A stretch of DNA of 64,000 nt from an uncultured Bacteroidales bacterium (GTDB taxonomy: Bacteria > Bacteroidota > Bacteroidia > Bacteroidales > Muribaculaceae). A program made the position numbers and the translations under genes. This document shows, piece by piece, positions 32,740 through 39,484 of this stretch. The notes beneath the pieces are model-generated. The model did no database searches. It was not told the origin of the DNA and saw only the letters and a list, made by a program, of their open reading frames with translations. The number at the start of each line of letters is the position of its first letter. The first letter of the stretch is position 1. The stretch covers positions 1-64,000 of the forward strand of contig CADCFN010000018.1 in the NCBI GenBank assembly GCA_902800715.1, in the 5' to 3' direction.

Positions 32740-34857
32740 TTAGCCTTGTTGCATGGTGAGCAGGAACTCCTCGTTGTCGCGGGTGCGCTCCATGCGTTCC
32801 TTGACAAATTCCATCGATTCCACCGAAGTGCGGTCGCTCAGGAAACGGCGAATAATCCACATCTTGTTCAGCGTGTCCTGCGGCAACAACAGGTCGTCGC
32901 GACGCGTGCTCGAAGCCATCACGTCCACAGCGGGGAAGATGCGCTTGTTGGAGAGCTTGCGGTCGAGCTGGAGTTCCATGTTACCGGTACCCTTGAATTC
33001 CTCAAAGATGACCTCGTCCATCTTGGAGCCGGTCTCGGTGAGCGCGGTAGCGATAATGGTAAGGCTACCGCCGCCCTCGATGTTGCGGGCAGCACCGAAG
33101 AAGCGCTTGGGGCGCTGCAGGGCGTTGGCATCGACACCACCGGTGAGGATTTTGCCTGACGCCGGGGCAATGGTATTGTAGGCGCGTGCCAGACGGGTAA
33201 TCGAGTCGAGCAGGATGACCACGTCATGACCGCATTCCACCAGACGTTTGGCCTTGCTCAGCACCAGGTCGGCAATCTTCACATGGCGGTCGGCGGGCTC
33301 GTCGAAGGTCGATGCGATGACCTCGGCGTTGACGCTGCGTGCCATATCGGTCACCTCCTCGGGGCGCTCGTCGATGAGCAGGATAATCATGTAGGTCTCG
33401 GGGTGGTTCTCCGAGATGGCATTGGCGATTTCCTTCAGCAGCATGGTCTTACCGGTCTTGGGCTGGGCGACGATGAGTCCGCGCTGGCCCTTGCCAATGG
33501 GCGAGAACATGTCCACCACGCGCTGTGAGATGGTGGGATGGCGCTTGCTCACGAGGTCAAACTTCTCGTCGGGGAACAAGGGCACCAGATGCTCAAAAGG
33601 CACGCGGTCGCGCACATAGGCAGGGGTGCGGCCGTTGATGAGGCGAATCTCGCTCAAGGGGAAGTATTTCTCACCCTCCATGGGCGGGCGGATGGTTCCC
33701 TCGATAACGTCACCTGTCTTGAGGCCGTAAGCCTTGATTTGGGACTGCTGCACATAGATGTCATCGGGCGAGGTGAGGTAATTGTAATCACTCGAACGCA
33801 GGAAACCGTAGCCCTCGGGCATAATCTCCAGCACGCCCTGCGACTCCAGGATACCATCAAAATTGTAAGGCTGGTCGATATAGGGATTATCATCGGCAAT
33901 CTGTTGCTGCTGTTGCTGCTTCATCTTGCGCTTTTTGTTCTTGTTCTCCTTGACCACCTTGGGCTCCTGAATCACGATGGGTGCCACTGCGGCTTCCTCG
34001 GCCTGGCGCTTGCGTTCCTCCTCGGCGCGACGCATCGCCTCCTCACGTTCCTGCTGGGTGCGGGGCTTGAAGGTGAAACCGCTACCCGTGTTGAAGAACG
34101 AGTTCAACGACATCTGCTCACGTTCACGAGGCATCGTTTCCTGTTGTACGGGCTGTTCTTCCTGGACCTCAATATATTCCTCCTCGACGGGCATTTCCAT
34201 CGGTTGTTCCTCGATGACGGGCTGCTCCTCTTCGACGGGCTGCTCAACCGCGTTATCAAACGGCAACGCGAGTTGTTCGGCGGCCTGTTTTGTTTTGCGT
34301 CCACCCTTGCGGCGGGTCGGCTTAGGCTCGGCGGGCTCATCGGGAGTCACCTCAACCTCGGCCACGGCAGCGTTGTCGTCATTCTGTTCGGCTTGTTCTT
34401 TTTCGGCCTCACGGGCGGCTTTTTCGGCTGCTGTGGGCCTGCCACGCTTGCGCTTGGGCTGTTCTACCTCAGCGGGCTGAGGCTGTTCTTCTTCGGCCTT
34501 GGGAGTTTTGGCTGCTTTTGAGGTTTTGGTTGCCTTGGGCGCCTCTTCGGCCATGGGCGTTTCCTCTTTCTTTATTTTGTCTTCTTTTTTATCTTGAGTC
34601 TTTTTCTTGGTAGCGACAGCATCATCCTTGGTCACCTCGTTGCCGTTAGCCTTGGCAGCGGGTTGCTGCTTGATGCGTTCGCGGCGTTTTTTGGTAGGTT
34701 CAGGGGCATTGGCAGCGGCGGTATCGGCCTGGTGGTCCAGCAGCAGAAAAACCAACGCATCGTGTTCGAACGAGTCGACCCGTTTAATACCCAAAGACTT
34801 AGCCAGCTCTTGCAGCTGCTCGTCACCCATTTCTTGAAGTTGATCGATAGTGTACAT
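32740..34857 (-). CDS. rho: Transcription termination factor Rho with long disordered insert
   Basis: Hexameric RNA helicase/terminator, 705 residues, far longer than the 419 of E. coli. The N-terminal SAP-like helices ([20 protein letters not shown]) are followed by about 300 residues rich in Lys, Glu, Ala, Pro and Gln, an insert typical of Bacteroidota. Then comes the RNA-binding OB fold ([20 protein letters not shown]) and the motor with [15 protein letters not shown] (Walker A), [13 protein letters not shown] and the R-loop/Arg-finger region. The ATG at 34857 is preferred over one ten codons earlier. Heads the rho-ruvX-def unit. Confidence 0.97.
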
Positions 34858-35210
34858 ATTATAATAGATATAACCGGAATGGTGCAACAGGCTATGTCCT
34901 GCCTGTTTACGTCACACCAGCGCATGCACTCTCGGGCACGCTTTTCCTTATTAATGATTTGTCTTCTAAGTTTTCACATCAATTACCAATTCATGCTATC
35001 CCGGTGTTTTCTCGAAATATACTAATCGTGCAACAACACACAATAAAAAATAAAGTGCTCGGGATTTTGTAAAGAATCGGAATAAAAGATAATTGTGATT
35101 GCAAAACGCCTGTTGGCGCTGTTTTGCGATGCAAAAGTAAGGTTTTTTCATAACATGAGCAAAAAAAGCGCGAAAAAAGCAGTAATTTTGCAGTCCCAGA
35201 GCAAAAAAAC
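34858..35210. other. Long rho leader and divergent promoter region
   Basis: Non-coding. The rho promoter (35132-35163, minus strand) is about 270 bases upstream of the ATG, so rho mRNA has a long leader beginning near 35125. The first part forms a hairpin GCAAAAC..GTTTTGC (35101-35127). For the plus-strand gene only a -7 box TAATTTTG (35183-35190) is clear. Confidence 0.65.
35132..35163 (-). promoter_or_regulatory. Promoter for rho-ruvX-def
   Basis: On the minus strand TTTG (complement of 35160-35163), 20-base spacer, TACTTTTG (35132-35139): a consensus match. Confidence 0.8.
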
Positions 35211-37133
35211 ATGGAAATCGACCGACAAAAAATAGCCGAGCACATGAATCGGCCCGTGATGAAGCTGGTGGGCGAAGTCGCCGACGAGCTGCACCGCGAG
35301 TGCTACGTCGTGGGCGGATATGTGAGGGATATCTTCCTGGAACGCCCCAGCAACGACATGGACTTCGTCACCGTGGGTAGCGGCATCGAGGTCGCCAAAG
35401 CCGTTGCCCGACGCATCGGCAAGCGTGCCCATCTGGCAGTGTTCCGCACCTACGGCACCGCCCAGGTCAAGACGCGCCAGTGGGAGTTGGAGTTTGTTGG
35501 CGCCCGCCGCGAGTCCTATCACCGCGAGAGCCGCAATCCCATCGTGGAAGACGGCACCCTCGATGACGACCAGAAACGCCGCGACTTCACCATCAACGCG
35601 ATGGCAATCTGCCTGAACAAGGAGCGCTATGGTGAACTGCTCGACCCGTTTGACGGCATCGGTGACCTGGAGCGTCGCATCATCCGCACGCCGCTCGACC
35701 CCGACATCACCTTCAGCGACGACCCGTTGAGGATGATGCGTGCCGTGCGCTTTGCCACCCAACTGGGCTTTGACATCTATCCCGAGACCTTCTCGGCCAT
35801 CCGCCGCAACGCCAAGCGCATCAACATCATCACCCGCGAACGCATCGCTGAGGAACTGATGAAAATCATGGCCAGCAACCAGCCCTCACGCGGCTGGATG
35901 CTGCTGGACCAGTGCGGACTGCTGCCGCTCATCTTCCCCGAACTGGCAGCCCTCAAGGGCGTGGAGACCGTCAATGGCCGCGGACACAAGGACAACTTCA
36001 TGCACACGCTGCAGGTGCTCGACAACGTCGCCGACGCCAGCCATGACGTATGGCTGCGGTGGGCTGCCCTGCTGCATGATGTGGGCAAGGCGCGCACCAA
36101 GCGCTGGGACCCGCAGCTGGGATGGACATTCCACAACCACAACTTCGTCGGCGAGAAGATGGTGCCCAAGATTTTTGCCAAGATGCGCCTGCCGCTCAAC
36201 GAGCACATGAAATATGTGAAAAAACTCGTGGGCCTGCACATGCGTCCCATCGCCCTGGTCGAGGACGAGGTGACCGACAGCGCCGTGAGGCGGCTGCTCT
36301 TTGACGCGGGCGACGATATCGACGACCTGATGACGCTGTGCAAGGCCGACATCACGAGCAAGAACCAGAACAAGGTGCAGCGCTTCCGCGAGAATTTCGA
36401 CCTGGTGAAACGCAAACTGGTGGACATCGAGGAGAAGGACCGTGTGCGCAACTTCCAGCCGCCCGTCGATGGCGAGGAAATCATGCAGACCTTCGGCCTC
36501 ACGCCATCGCGCCCCGTGGGCTATATCAAGGATGCCATCAAGGACGCTATCCTCGACGGCATCATCGGCAACGAGTATGCCGCTGCCTATCGTCTCATGC
36601 TCAACAAAGCCGCCGAACTGAGTATAGAGCCCGTCCACAAGGGCCACCTGTGCCACACGACCATGGAGTCGCCCGTGGGCACGCTCATCATTGCCGCCAG
36701 CGACGAGGGCATCGCCCTGATTGGCTGGAGTGCTGACGAACTCGATAAAATCGCGGCTAGACTGAAACTGGAGCCCGTCGAAGCGGTTACTCCCCTACTC
36801 GCCCAGTGCATCCGTCAGCTGGAGGAATACTTTGCAGGAACACGCCGTGAGTTCTCGCTGCCCCTCGTCATGAAAGGCACCGAGTTCCAGATGAAGGCGT
36901 GGGACGTGCTGCGACAGATTCCGTACGGCAAGACGATTTCCTACGGCGAACAGGCCACTCGCCTGGGCAACGCCAAGGCATCGCGCCCGGTTGCACAGGC
37001 CAACCACAACAACCCCGTCGCCATCGTCGTGCCCTGCCACCGCGTCATCAACGCCAACGGCACCCTGGGCGGCTATGCCCCGGGCACCGACAAAAAGCAA
37101 TTCCTGCTCGCCTTGGAGCAAAAATCCATTTGA
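35211..37133 (+). CDS. CCA tRNA nucleotidyltransferase fused to O6-alkylguanine-DNA alkyltransferase
   Basis: A single 640-residue frame. Residues 1 to about 475 are a CCA-adding enzyme: VVGGYVRDIFL and NDMDFVTVG (nucleotidyltransferase motif A), RRDFTINAMA, DPLRMMRAVRFATQLGF, and an HD domain WAALLHDVGKARTK with LVGLHMRPI. From about 480 a complete alkyltransferase follows: TMESPVGTLIIAASDEGIAL at its start, the helix-turn-helix segment QIPYGKTISYGEQA, and the active site VVPCHRVINANG with acceptor Cys609. The linker is only a few residues. No stop or frameshift interrupts the join. One part repairs tRNA 3' ends, the other removes alkyl groups from guanine in DNA. The two are normally separate genes. 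Confidence 0.93.
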   Translation: MEIDRQKIAEHMNRPVMKLVGEVADELHRECYVVGGYVRDIFLERPSNDMDFVTVGSGIEVAKAVARRIGKRAHLAVFRTYGTAQVKTRQWELEFVGARRESYHRESRNPIVEDGTLDDDQKRRDFTINAMAICLNKERYGELLDPFDGIGDLERRIIRTPLDPDITFSDDPLRMMRAVRFATQLGFDIYPETFSAIRRNAKRINIITRERIAEELMKIMASNQPSRGWMLLDQCGLLPLIFPELAALKGVETVNGRGHKDNFMHTLQVLDNVADASHDVWLRWAALLHDVGKARTKRWDPQLGWTFHNHNFVGEKMVPKIFAKMRLPLNEHMKYVKKLVGLHMRPIALVEDEVTDSAVRRLLFDAGDDIDDLMTLCKADITSKNQNKVQRFRENFDLVKRKLVDIEEKDRVRNFQPPVDGEEIMQTFGLTPSRPVGYIKDAIKDAILDGIIGNEYAAAYRLMLNKAAELSIEPVHKGHLCHTTMESPVGTLIIAASDEGIALIGWSADELDKIAARLKLEPVEAVTPLLAQCIRQLEEYFAGTRREFSLPLVMKGTEFQMKAWDVLRQIPYGKTISYGEQATRLGNAKASRPVAQANHNNPVAIVVPCHRVINANGTLGGYAPGTDKKQFLLALEQKSI

Positions 37134-37431
37134 CAAAATAAGGGTATCGGACTCAAAAACATATAAACCGCCCGTTGGGCGGAAAATTAAAAAAAATTAA
37201 TTTTAAAATTTTAATTTGATTAATTTCCCGTGCTTATGCGCGGTTTAATAATATAGAGGCACTTTGAATTCCTGCTTGCCCTGGAGCAACAATCCATTTG
37301 ACAAAACAAGGGTATCGGACTCAAAAACATATAAACCGCCCGTTGGGCGGGAAATTAAAAAAAATTAATTTTAAAATTTTAATTTGATTAATTTCCCGTG
37401 CTTTAGCACGGTTTAATAATGAGGCACTTTG
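37099..37431. repeat. Tandem 168-base duplication starting inside the fusion gene's last codons
   Basis: Copy 1 (37099-37266) includes the last eleven codons and stop of the CCA/alkyltransferase gene; copy 2 (37267 to about 37431) repeats them with a few changes. Each copy has CCGCCCGTTGGGCGG, a long A/T palindromic stretch and CCCGTGC..GCACGG or its variant. Confidence 0.9.
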
Positions 37432-37532: not shown

Positions 37533-38948
37533 TTAGTGGCTCGTGTAGAAGTCGGTGATGCGCTGGATGGCGCGTGAACACACGGGGCAGAAGTTCTGCA
37601 CCTCGTTAATCTTCATGCGGCATTCCTGGGCAGGACGATAGACGCCCTTGGACTGGTAGCCCCCACCCTCGAACACGCCGACGCGCTGCGTGGCGGCATC
37701 GAGCAGGCGCTGCTCCTTCTCGGTGGTGATTTTGCGGTAATTAGGCACCTTGGGGTCGGGAGGAGTGGGGATGGCAACGCCCTTGGGCACCATGTCGGCC
37801 CACTTGCTCTGGAAATCGACCAGCGTGGTCAGGTTGGGCTCCCAGGGCTCGGTATCGGCGGGATACATGCTCTCGTAGGCGTCATCATAGAAATATTCAT
37901 CGCCCAAGCCAGCGTAGGCGTGGCCGAACTCATGCACGAGCACCTGGTGGAACGTGGGATGGTCGCTCGTGGTGACGGTAATCTGGTTGTAGATGCCGCC
38001 ACCGCCGTAGGTGTCGCTGTTGACCAGCACGATGATGTGCTCGAAGGGGACGCCCGACAGCACGTCATACAGGCGATGGATGTCCTGCGTCATCAGGTAG
38101 CGGTCGCTGTAGAAGGTGTCGTAGTGGGTGCCCACGGGTGTGGCGCTCCAGCGTCCCAGGTGCGGCACGCTGGGGCCGCTGGTGAGCGACTCGGCAGCCA
38201 CGGCGACGACATTGAAACGGTCCTTCATCGAGGTGAACGGCTCATGAGCAAACAGCGCATCCACGACACGCTGGCAGTCGGCATAGAACTTACCCATCTG
38301 GGCACGGGTGTAGCCCTCGGCCACAATCGCCAGGTCGATGCACTCGGTGATGTCGGGCTCGCCGCCAAGGGGACCCTCGGTGGGCATGTAGTTGCGCTTA
38401 CCGGGCTGGTCGGGAGACGCAAGATTTTGCGTCTCTACAGTCTTGCCTTTCCAGATGTAATGATAAGGGATGCCATTGTCGCCAATCTGGCGGATAAGGA
38501 TGTCGGCGGGGTCCACGGTATGCGTCAGGCTGGTCACCACCTTGCCGTGGAAGTCGGTGAGCGTGACGGTGACGTCAACGGGCTGCTTGGGCATGGGCAC
38601 ATTGTAACTCGTGGCGAAGGCTTTGCTCACCTTGGTGGCTTCCTCGGTAGCCAGCCACTCCTGGAAGAGCGTCGAGAAGGTGTGGACAAACAGCACCTGG
38701 CCCGTGGCATGGTCCCTGACCTGAATCTGGCCGTTGCCCTTCAGGGGGACGTCGGCGAGGCGGCTCTTACGGCCCGCCCACTGCGGTGTGACATACATCT
38801 GCTCCAGATAAATCTGCTGGGCATCATGGTTACCCGCAAAGATATAGTCCAGACGAAGGGTGCGGCTCTCAAAAACGTCGTCAAACTGCTGCGCCATGGC
38901 AGTCATCGCCATAATGGCAATAGATAAGGTGAAAAGAATCCGTTTCAT
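37533..38948 (-). CDS. Secreted M64 (IgA-protease type) metallopeptidase
   Basis: 471 residues with signal peptide (about 1-19, ending AMAQ). N-terminal beta domain (about 20-180), then the M64 catalytic domain: IDLAIVAEGYTRAQMGKF, FEHIIVLVNSDTYGGGGIYN and the zinc motif VHEFGHAYAGLGDEY (two His, catalytic Glu, third ligand downstream). CRMKINEVQNFCPVCSRA near the end is a conserved cysteine tail. The chosen ATG is 38948. A 22-base palindrome at 38414-38435 is inserted in frame and encodes about residues 172-179. Likely degrades host or dietary glycoproteins; true IgA cleavage is not implied. Confidence 0.92.
   Translation of the reverse strand: MKRILFTLSIAIMAMTAMAQQFDDVFESRTLRLDYIFAGNHDAQQIYLEQMYVTPQWAGRKSRLADVPLKGNGQIQVRDHATGQVLFVHTFSTLFQEWLATEEATKVSKAFATSYNVPMPKQPVDVTVTLTDFHGKVVTSLTHTVDPADILIRQIGDNGIPYHYIWKGKTVETQNLASPDQPGKRNYMPTEGPLGGEPDITECIDLAIVAEGYTRAQMGKFYADCQRVVDALFAHEPFTSMKDRFNVVAVAAESLTSGPSVPHLGRWSATPVGTHYDTFYSDRYLMTQDIHRLYDVLSGVPFEHIIVLVNSDTYGGGGIYNQITVTTSDHPTFHQVLVHEFGHAYAGLGDEYFYDDAYESMYPADTEPWEPNLTTLVDFQSKWADMVPKGVAIPTPPDPKVPNYRKITTEKEQRLLDAATQRVGVFEGGGYQSKGVYRPAQECRMKINEVQNFCPVCSRAIQRITDFYTSH
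38414..38435. repeat. GAGACGCAA palindrome inside M64 gene
   Basis: Nine-base arms GAGACGCAA and TTGCGTCTC around GATT. A degenerate copy is at 1091-1112 next to glyA. This type of 22-26 base palindrome is known as a dispersed repeat in Bacteroidota; here it lies inside a coding region without breaking the frame. Confidence 0.85.
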
Positions 38949-38989
38949 GAGTAATCTTTGTTTTTTTTGCAAAGGTAGGTATTTTTTTC

Positions 38990-38997: not shown

Positions 38998-39019
38998 TAA
39001 AAAGATTTTGAAGTCGATT

Positions 39020-39484
39020 ATGGTGGAGTTGAATTTACCGGAATATGATTTTAAGGTGACGAAACGGGAGGACGGCTCGTGGGCGATTTGGGACCGGCTG
39101 CGCGACCGATGGGTGGCGCTGACGCCCGAGGAATGGGTGCGTCAGCACTTCGTGGAGTGGCTGATTACCGACAGGCAGTTTCCCGCCGCGCTGATGGGCA
39201 ATGAGGTGTCGCTGACACAGAACGGCATCGCCCGCCGCTGCGACACGGTGGTCGCCGACCGCACGGGACAACCACTGGTCATCGTGGAATACAAGGCGCC
39301 CAGCATCAACGTGACGCAGAAGGTGTTTGACCAGATTGTGCGCTACAACATGGTGCTCAAGGCGCGCTACCTGATTGTGAGCAACGGCCTGAGTCACTAC
39401 TGCTGCCAAATCGACTACGAGAATAACAGTTACCGCTTCCTGGAAGAAATACCACTCTATCAGGAGTTAATAGATAATAGTTAA
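39020..39484 (+). CDS. Stand-alone HsdR N-terminal-type PD-(D/E)xK protein
   Basis: 154 residues forming only the N-terminal nuclease-like domain of type I restriction subunit HsdR (PF13588). The catalytic-type core is CDTVVADRTGQPLVIVEYKA: an Asp, then Glu-x-Lys in VEYK. Conserved flanks are RQHFVEWLIT and QIVRYNMVLKARYLIVSNG. No motor, HsdM or HsdS gene is near. ATG 39020 (MVELNLPEYDF) is chosen over a TTG at 39008. This stand-alone form is common in Bacteroidota. It is more likely a housekeeping nuclease or DNA-binding protein than a restriction enzyme. Confidence 0.85.
   Translation: MVELNLPEYDFKVTKREDGSWAIWDRLRDRWVALTPEEWVRQHFVEWLITDRQFPAALMGNEVSLTQNGIARRCDTVVADRTGQPLVIVEYKAPSINVTQKVFDQIVRYNMVLKARYLIVSNGLSHYCCQIDYENNSYRFLEEIPLYQELIDNS

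Follow-up and report, generated by a model that had tools for sequence, protein, structure and literature searches.

How should a single, uninterrupted reading frame be understood when it joins an enzyme that matures the 3' end of tRNA to an enzyme that repairs DNA? This question is raised by one gene in a stretch of 64,000 nucleotides (hereafter, the window) from the draft genome (27 contigs, 88.87% complete) of an uncultured Bacteroidales bacterium of the family Muribaculaceae (assembly GCA_902800715.1, contig CADCFN010000018.1), in which a tRNA nucleotidyltransferase of the CCA-adding type and an O6-alkylguanine-DNA alkyltransferase (AGT) are encoded as one protein (Table 1). The fusion is genuine and is common to many rumen and gut bacterial species. 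We consider it probable that the product is a bifunctional protein derived from the fusion of two coupled genes, in which each half would work by its ordinary mechanism and the two would be constitutively co-produced.

Table 1. Coordinates of the fused gene, its domains and the neighbouring features in the window.
Feature	Position	Strand	Remarks
Fused gene, tRNA nucleotidyltransferase (CCA-adding type) and AGT	35211..37133	+	640 aa, ATG to TGA
Nucleotidyltransferase head domain, residues 31-159	35301..35687	+	Pfam PF01743 PolyA_pol; GGYVRD 35-40, DMD 49-51, RRD 123-125
PolyA_pol_RNAbd region, residues 186-247	35766..35951	+	Pfam PF12627
HD domain, residues 263-348	35997..36254	+	Pfam PF01966; H289-D290 invariant (71/71 fused proteins)
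Junction/linker, about residues 476-481	36636..36653	+	Placed by where unfused CCA proteins end and where the Pfam match to AGT begins
AGT N-terminal ribonuclease-like subdomain, residues 482-552	36654..36866	+	Pfam PF02870 Methyltransf_1N
AGT DNA-binding/active-site subdomain, residues 558-637	36882..37121	+	Pfam PF01035 DNA_binding_1; aligns with solved AGTs
PCHRV motif, residues 608-612, acceptor Cys609	37032..37046	+	P608, C609, H610 and R611 in 71/71 fused proteins
Tandem duplication, copy 1	37099..37252	+	154 nt; comprises the terminal 35 nt of the gene and the adjoining 3' flank, which has an AT-rich hairpin
Tandem duplication, copy 2	37267..37420	+	154 nt; 95% identical to copy 1
rho (transcription termination factor), divergent neighbour	32740..34887	-	Pfam Rho_RNA_bind

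The initial annotation of this locus had described one open frame carrying a complete CCA-adding enzyme with its HD domain and a complete AGT with a PCHRV active site, with a short linker of only a few residues between them; this description holds. The frame has no internal stop, and the five Pfam matches found in its product all exceed their cut-offs (bit scores of 95.4 for PF01743, 50.4 for PF02870 and 110 for PF01035). In the CCA half, the nucleotidyltransferase head (GG..RD and DxD motifs), the RNA-binding region and the HD domain of the bacterial long form were all found; its best NCBIfam model is TIGR02692 (CCA tRNA nucleotidyltransferase), which matches residues 7-450 with 362.9 bits, below its cut-off of 438.8. 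CCA addition, as opposed to poly(A) or A-only addition, is the presumed specificity of this half. The AGT half contains both subdomains of a complete two-subdomain AGT and scores 106.2 bits against TIGR00589 (ogt; cut-off 46.4). Solved relatives of each half exist in the PDB, and no entry spanning both halves was found among the matches listed (the best 60 of 67). In particular, the AGT half aligns nearly end to end with solved AGTs, including E. coli Ada and the human protein (structures 1sfe and 1eh8, whose source organisms are given as in PMC10779285). The CCA proteins of unfused relatives mostly stop near window residue 475-480 and the AGT Pfam match begins at residue 482, so that a linker of few residues between two complete halves is a fair description.

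The distribution of the fusion was examined in a sample of 397 genomes of the family, from 30 genera, including the window's own genome. Full-length fused matches are present in 74 of these genomes and come from three genera alone: 66/84 genomes of the window's genus (g1), 5/5 of g28 and 3/9 of g23. In one of the 74 (G017), the TGA listed is the terminal stop of the gene, and in a further g23 genome (G112) the fusion is interrupted by the end of a contig. Among the matches listed for the order (393 genomes) and the phylum (395 genomes), about 150 rows each, no other full-length match was found. The window's genus is here called Sodaliphilus-like Muribaculaceae, since one of its contigs (L074, with the same contig coordinates as G355) bears the title Candidatus Sodaliphilus fimicaballi. 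Classification of 152 loci with a CCA match, many of which are duplicates of one genome, gave 103 fused loci, four with an AGT nearby and 45 without an AGT in the stretch covered, which in some cases reaches well under 1 kb downstream. Two of the four loci with a nearby AGT (L105 and L212) belong to one genome, G345, whose fused gene is frameshifted inside the CCA half; this frameshift is either real or an assembly error.

An assembly or base-calling artefact, by which two neighbouring genes would have been read as one, has to be considered here, since the listed fused genomes are all multi-contig drafts and most of their titles name metagenome-assembled genomes (MAGs). Nevertheless, the nearest relative (L031, 98% identical) reads through the junction, as do all of the 71 distinct fused proteins, which are drawn from MAG sets with differing labels (RUG, RGIG, UBA, SRR bins, Candidatus Sodaliphilus). 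The check for a missed stop at the junction, which the initial annotation had called for, revealed no problem; these proteins, together with their occurrence in 66 of the 84 genomes, rule out an artefact at the level of the genus, and we give this explanation practically no chance.

Both halves look functional, as judged from an alignment of the 71 distinct fused proteins. In the CCA half, GGYVRD (including G35, G36, R39 and D40), D49, R124-D125 and H289-D290 are invariant, and D51, the second aspartate of the DxD motif, is kept in 70/71; in the remaining protein it is replaced by histidine, and impairment of nucleotidyl transfer would be expected there. In the AGT half, Y578, R592, N601, P608, C609, H610, R611 and E636 are invariant. 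Window residues were matched by motif to the known AGT residues C145, H146, E172, R128 and Y114, whose roles are taken from the account in PMC10779285; the acceptor cysteine in PCHR, the arginine finger, the tyrosine and the glutamate of the Cys-His-Glu network are all present. The AGT half is under less constraint than the CCA half: mean pairwise identity among the 71 proteins is 0.53 and 0.81, respectively, and the median pairwise dN/dS, below 1 in both, is 0.384 for the AGT half (242/2485 pairs) and 0.131 for the CCA half (707/2485 pairs), the two sets of pairs being different because a separate dS filter was applied to each half.

In the window's genome one PF01743 match and one PF01035 match were found, both in the fused gene; furthermore, no Ada_Zn_binding or AlkB-type match was found in it, an absence that is provisional at 88.87% completeness. 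A PF01035 match is present in 90 of the 101 genomes of the genus; in 77 of these 90 it is the sole match of the genome, and the open frame around it spans 639-756 aa. In eight others (G408, G363, G122, G301, G173, G367, G353 and G289) the frame measures 133-317 aa, with two matches in G173, and the remaining five have frames of 274-504 aa (G345, frameshifted; G361 and G379, at contig ends; G349 and G393). Four short matches resembling AGT, with frames of 131-144 aa and possibly representing alkyltransferase-like proteins, lie at G173:C1:2126253-2126486, G289:C81:6658-6891, G023:C7:160653-160853 and G112:C4:3917-4195. As for the tRNAs of the window's genome, 33 distinct predictions from 30 loci were checked, out of 45 tRNA matches, and CCA is genome-encoded after the discriminator base in only 5 of them. 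Since 28/33 of the checked tRNAs lack an encoded CCA and the fused gene encodes the sole PolyA_pol protein found, the CCA half should be indispensable.

How such a gene may have arisen is suggested by its relatives. In G027, cca and ogt are unfused and overlap by four bases (ATGA); cca terminates as ...LKPIKL-stop and ogt starts MRIYRKSISSPIG. Joining genes of this type would need both a change of frame and the loss of the stop. The G027 AGT and all of the fused AGTs lie on one side of a branch with support 70 (unstarred), and the G027 arrangement is plausibly the state that preceded the fusion. In another relative, G010 (L191), cca and ogt are separated by a queD-like gene next to cca and a queE-like gene next to ogt, all four on one strand (the queD-like and queE-like names were read from sequence alone), hinting at an older shared cluster. 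We propose that the fusion originated from a translationally coupled cca-ogt pair with an ATGA overlap, as in G027, in which a small indel would have removed the cca stop and produced a single frame. The N-terminal half would then be the CCA-adding enzyme of the cell for tRNA 3' ends and the C-terminal half its O6-alkylguanine-DNA alkyltransferase, each acting by the usual mechanism; the single polypeptide would persist in the cell, and the outcome would be the constitutive synthesis of AGT, 1:1 with a housekeeping enzyme on which most tRNAs depend, a co-production that may be beneficial or neutral and for which new chemistry would be unnecessary. The earlier suggestion that the fusion simply ensures co-production can be kept in this form, as a reading drawn from the sole AGT, the sole PolyA_pol protein and the relative with overlapping genes.

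The phylogenies bear on how often the fusion was gained and lost. In the AGT tree, from which the long-branched row L169 was dropped, a single fused clade is not rejected (p-AU 0.896) and has a likelihood above that of the free tree; in an earlier, less searched AGT tree the fused rows fell in more than one clade, with four changes of state. In the CCA tree the fused rows require six changes of state, and a single fused clade is rejected (p-AU 9e-35; 39 fused rows against 34 others, 37 of 110 rows having been thinned beforehand); because of this rejection, unfused rows must nest among fused ones. In particular, the unfused L091 (G339) and L175 (G359) group in the CCA tree with the fused L075 and L088 (starred support 96); both loci keep rho divergently upstream, as in the window, and no PF01035 match was found in G339 (87% complete) or G359 (82%). 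Loss of the AGT half in place would be the simplest explanation for this lineage. Furthermore, eight unfused rows inside the genus form a clade in the CCA tree (support 93), and the AGT half was probably lost there too and again in g23. Taken together, the two trees make one or two gains, with several losses, the favoured history, and they may also be compatible with repeated independent gains or regains.

Two other histories were considered and set aside. That the unfused members of the genus represent the primitive state is disfavoured by the tests on the CCA and AGT trees together. Fission, by which the AGT half would have been freed as a gene of its own, is unsupported: of the 18 standalone rows in the earlier AGT tree, eight (three belonging to the window's genus) fall into one group and nine (five belonging to g23) into another, each with support 99, and the long-branched L169 is placed elsewhere. 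Pointing towards fission, that tree, a free one, sets the first of these groups beside the fused g23 AGTs (support 81). These groupings apply to the rows in the tree; the standalone AGTs of five more unfused genomes of the genus (G367, G173, G122, G301 and G289) lie outside it. Remnants of an AGT were also sought at 15 unfused cca loci, two of them from the same genome, and none was convincing; the lowest E-values, 0.001 and 0.006, correspond to stretches of 31-32 residues on the upstream side of cca.

These apparent losses are relevant to two alternatives in which the halves would act upon each other, so that alkylation damage would pass directly into tRNA maturation. In the first, functional coupling, the CCA half would place the AGT on tRNA or other RNA for the repair of alkylated RNA, or both halves would act jointly on damaged nucleic acid. 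Many species have in fact kept the fusion, with no loss of the active-site residues that were checked, and its short linker segment has the same length in 62/71 fused proteins. However, it is 1-12 residues longer in the other nine, linkers vary among the three genera (among the rows listed, those of g1 are shorter than those of g23 and g28), the arginine finger and its neighbours used for DNA base flipping are retained, and the unfused lines nested among the fused ones have retained the CCA half. For this reason, and given the weaker constraint on the AGT half, a link between the repair of alkylation damage and that of tRNA ends, which the initial annotation had raised, finds little favour, and we regard it as unlikely.

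In the second alternative, the protein would be an alkylation sensor: irreversible alkylation of Cys609 would alter or destabilise the whole polypeptide and lower tRNA maturation, so that DNA alkylation would throttle, through the sole CCA-adding enzyme and the tRNA pool, the translation of the cell, in a switch resembling that of Ada and acting on translation instead of transcription. The transfer to the active-site cysteine of AGT is indeed described as irreversible in PMC10779285, and no PolyA_pol protein other than the CCA partner was found in the genome; yet an essential enzyme tied to one that consumes itself might just as well be a burden, and loss of the AGT half has seemingly occurred more than once. 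We therefore hold a sensor to be very improbable.

A third alternative concerns the junction itself: two proteins might still be made, by an internal start near the junction or by cleavage of the linker, with the fused frame as a minor form. Of the 71 fused proteins, 46 have an in-frame ATG within residues 469-490 and 37 have one at residue 485, and Bacteroidota depend little on Shine-Dalgarno sequences. No start position is common to all, however, and ATG, GTG and TTG are all absent from the linker region in 7/71; M463, though invariant, belongs to the final CCA segment, and a methionine is found there in many unfused relatives too. Two proteins as the general rule thus seem doubtful to us, and separate synthesis of the AGT is possible in some species.

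These internal ATG codons weigh against the fusion of coupled genes into a constitutively co-produced bifunctional protein, which we nonetheless prefer, and so do several other observations. Support for the grouping of G027 is weak, and G027 sits on a long branch in the CCA tree. Two fusion-bearing g23 genomes, G023 and G112, hold a second short AGT-like match. In the window protein, Pro593 (codon 36987-36989) adjoins the arginine finger, at a position occupied by alanine in 69/71 fused proteins, and could weaken this particular AGT. Finally, the fused AGTs are in part more diverged than standalone ones: where CCA identity is 0.65-0.72, mean AGT identity is 0.395 among fused proteins vs 0.539 and 0.480 in the two standalone groups, and at 0.72-0.76 it is 0.455 vs 0.531 and 0.468. 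On the other hand, the fused AGTs are less diverged at a CCA identity of 0.80-0.85 (0.518 vs 0.484) and about equally diverged at 0.76-0.80 and 0.85-0.90, several of these bins containing few standalone pairs.

The 3' end of the gene is also duplicated, as the initial annotation had noticed, in two 154-nt copies whose positions are 168 nt apart (Table 1). The duplication is real; what had been described as a locally rearranging site amounts to a tandem duplication that the nearest relative lacks, with a hairpin inside it whose pieces are also found elsewhere in the genome. Since L031 is fused and has a single copy of the 154-nt unit, the duplication did not create the fusion; it is ruled out as its origin and is an unrelated event. 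Pieces of the hairpin recur across the genome, with 20 matches including both copies, some of which are one place counted on both strands; this suggests that the AT-rich hairpin is a dispersed terminator-like or REP-like repeat. On the other side of the gene, rho adjoins it in many, not all, relatives, including two unfused ones. Near the fused gene no Rfam match above the gathering score was found, and a promoter scan found no promoter-like site. Downstream, a gene for an M64-family peptidase (37536-38972, minus strand) adjoins a gene (39011-39481, plus strand) for a 157-aa protein whose sole Pfam matches are to type I restriction HSDR_N families.

The fusion combines two well-known enzymes and is apparently undescribed. 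The initial annotation had found it unfamiliar and, in agreement, no earlier description of a tRNA nucleotidyltransferase-alkyltransferase fusion was found among the papers listed from the open-licence literature, which is weak evidence of novelty; the architecture may already be listed in domain databases. Across a large group of bacteria from rumen and gut, it unites within a single polypeptide an RNA-processing enzyme that is probably indispensable and a DNA-repair enzyme that consumes itself. Moreover, the lineages form a natural series, with the two genes apart, overlapping, fused, and unfused among fused, in which the birth and the loss of a fusion can be traced.

Other AGT fusions are known. 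A 2023 review of alkyltransferases (PMC10779285), whose main text does not contain the word tRNA, mentions an endonuclease and a histone-like domain as fusion partners. One such fusion, AGTendoV of Ferroplasma acidarmanus (Kanugula et al., 2005, as cited in PMC10779285), likewise joins an AGT to a nucleic-acid enzyme; unlike it, going by that account, the window protein has a whole AGT and an RNA enzyme as partner, with no endonuclease V among its Pfam matches. As in E. coli Ada, described in the same review, the AGT is the C-terminal half of a bifunctional protein; the N-terminal domain of Ada, a Zn-binding methylphosphotriester sensor and regulator, is absent from the window protein and was not found in its genome. 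With the class II bacterial CCA-adding enzymes that have an HD domain, the window protein shares the head, RNA-binding and HD domains with intact motifs, and it differs from them by its C-terminal AGT, unseen outside the three genera among the matches listed. With the Ogt/AGT proteins (PF02870 and PF01035, TIGR00589) it shares the two subdomains, the PCHRV motif, the arginine finger and the tyrosine; unlike them, its AGT is not free-standing and follows a tRNA enzyme in the same chain, from about residue 482 onwards.
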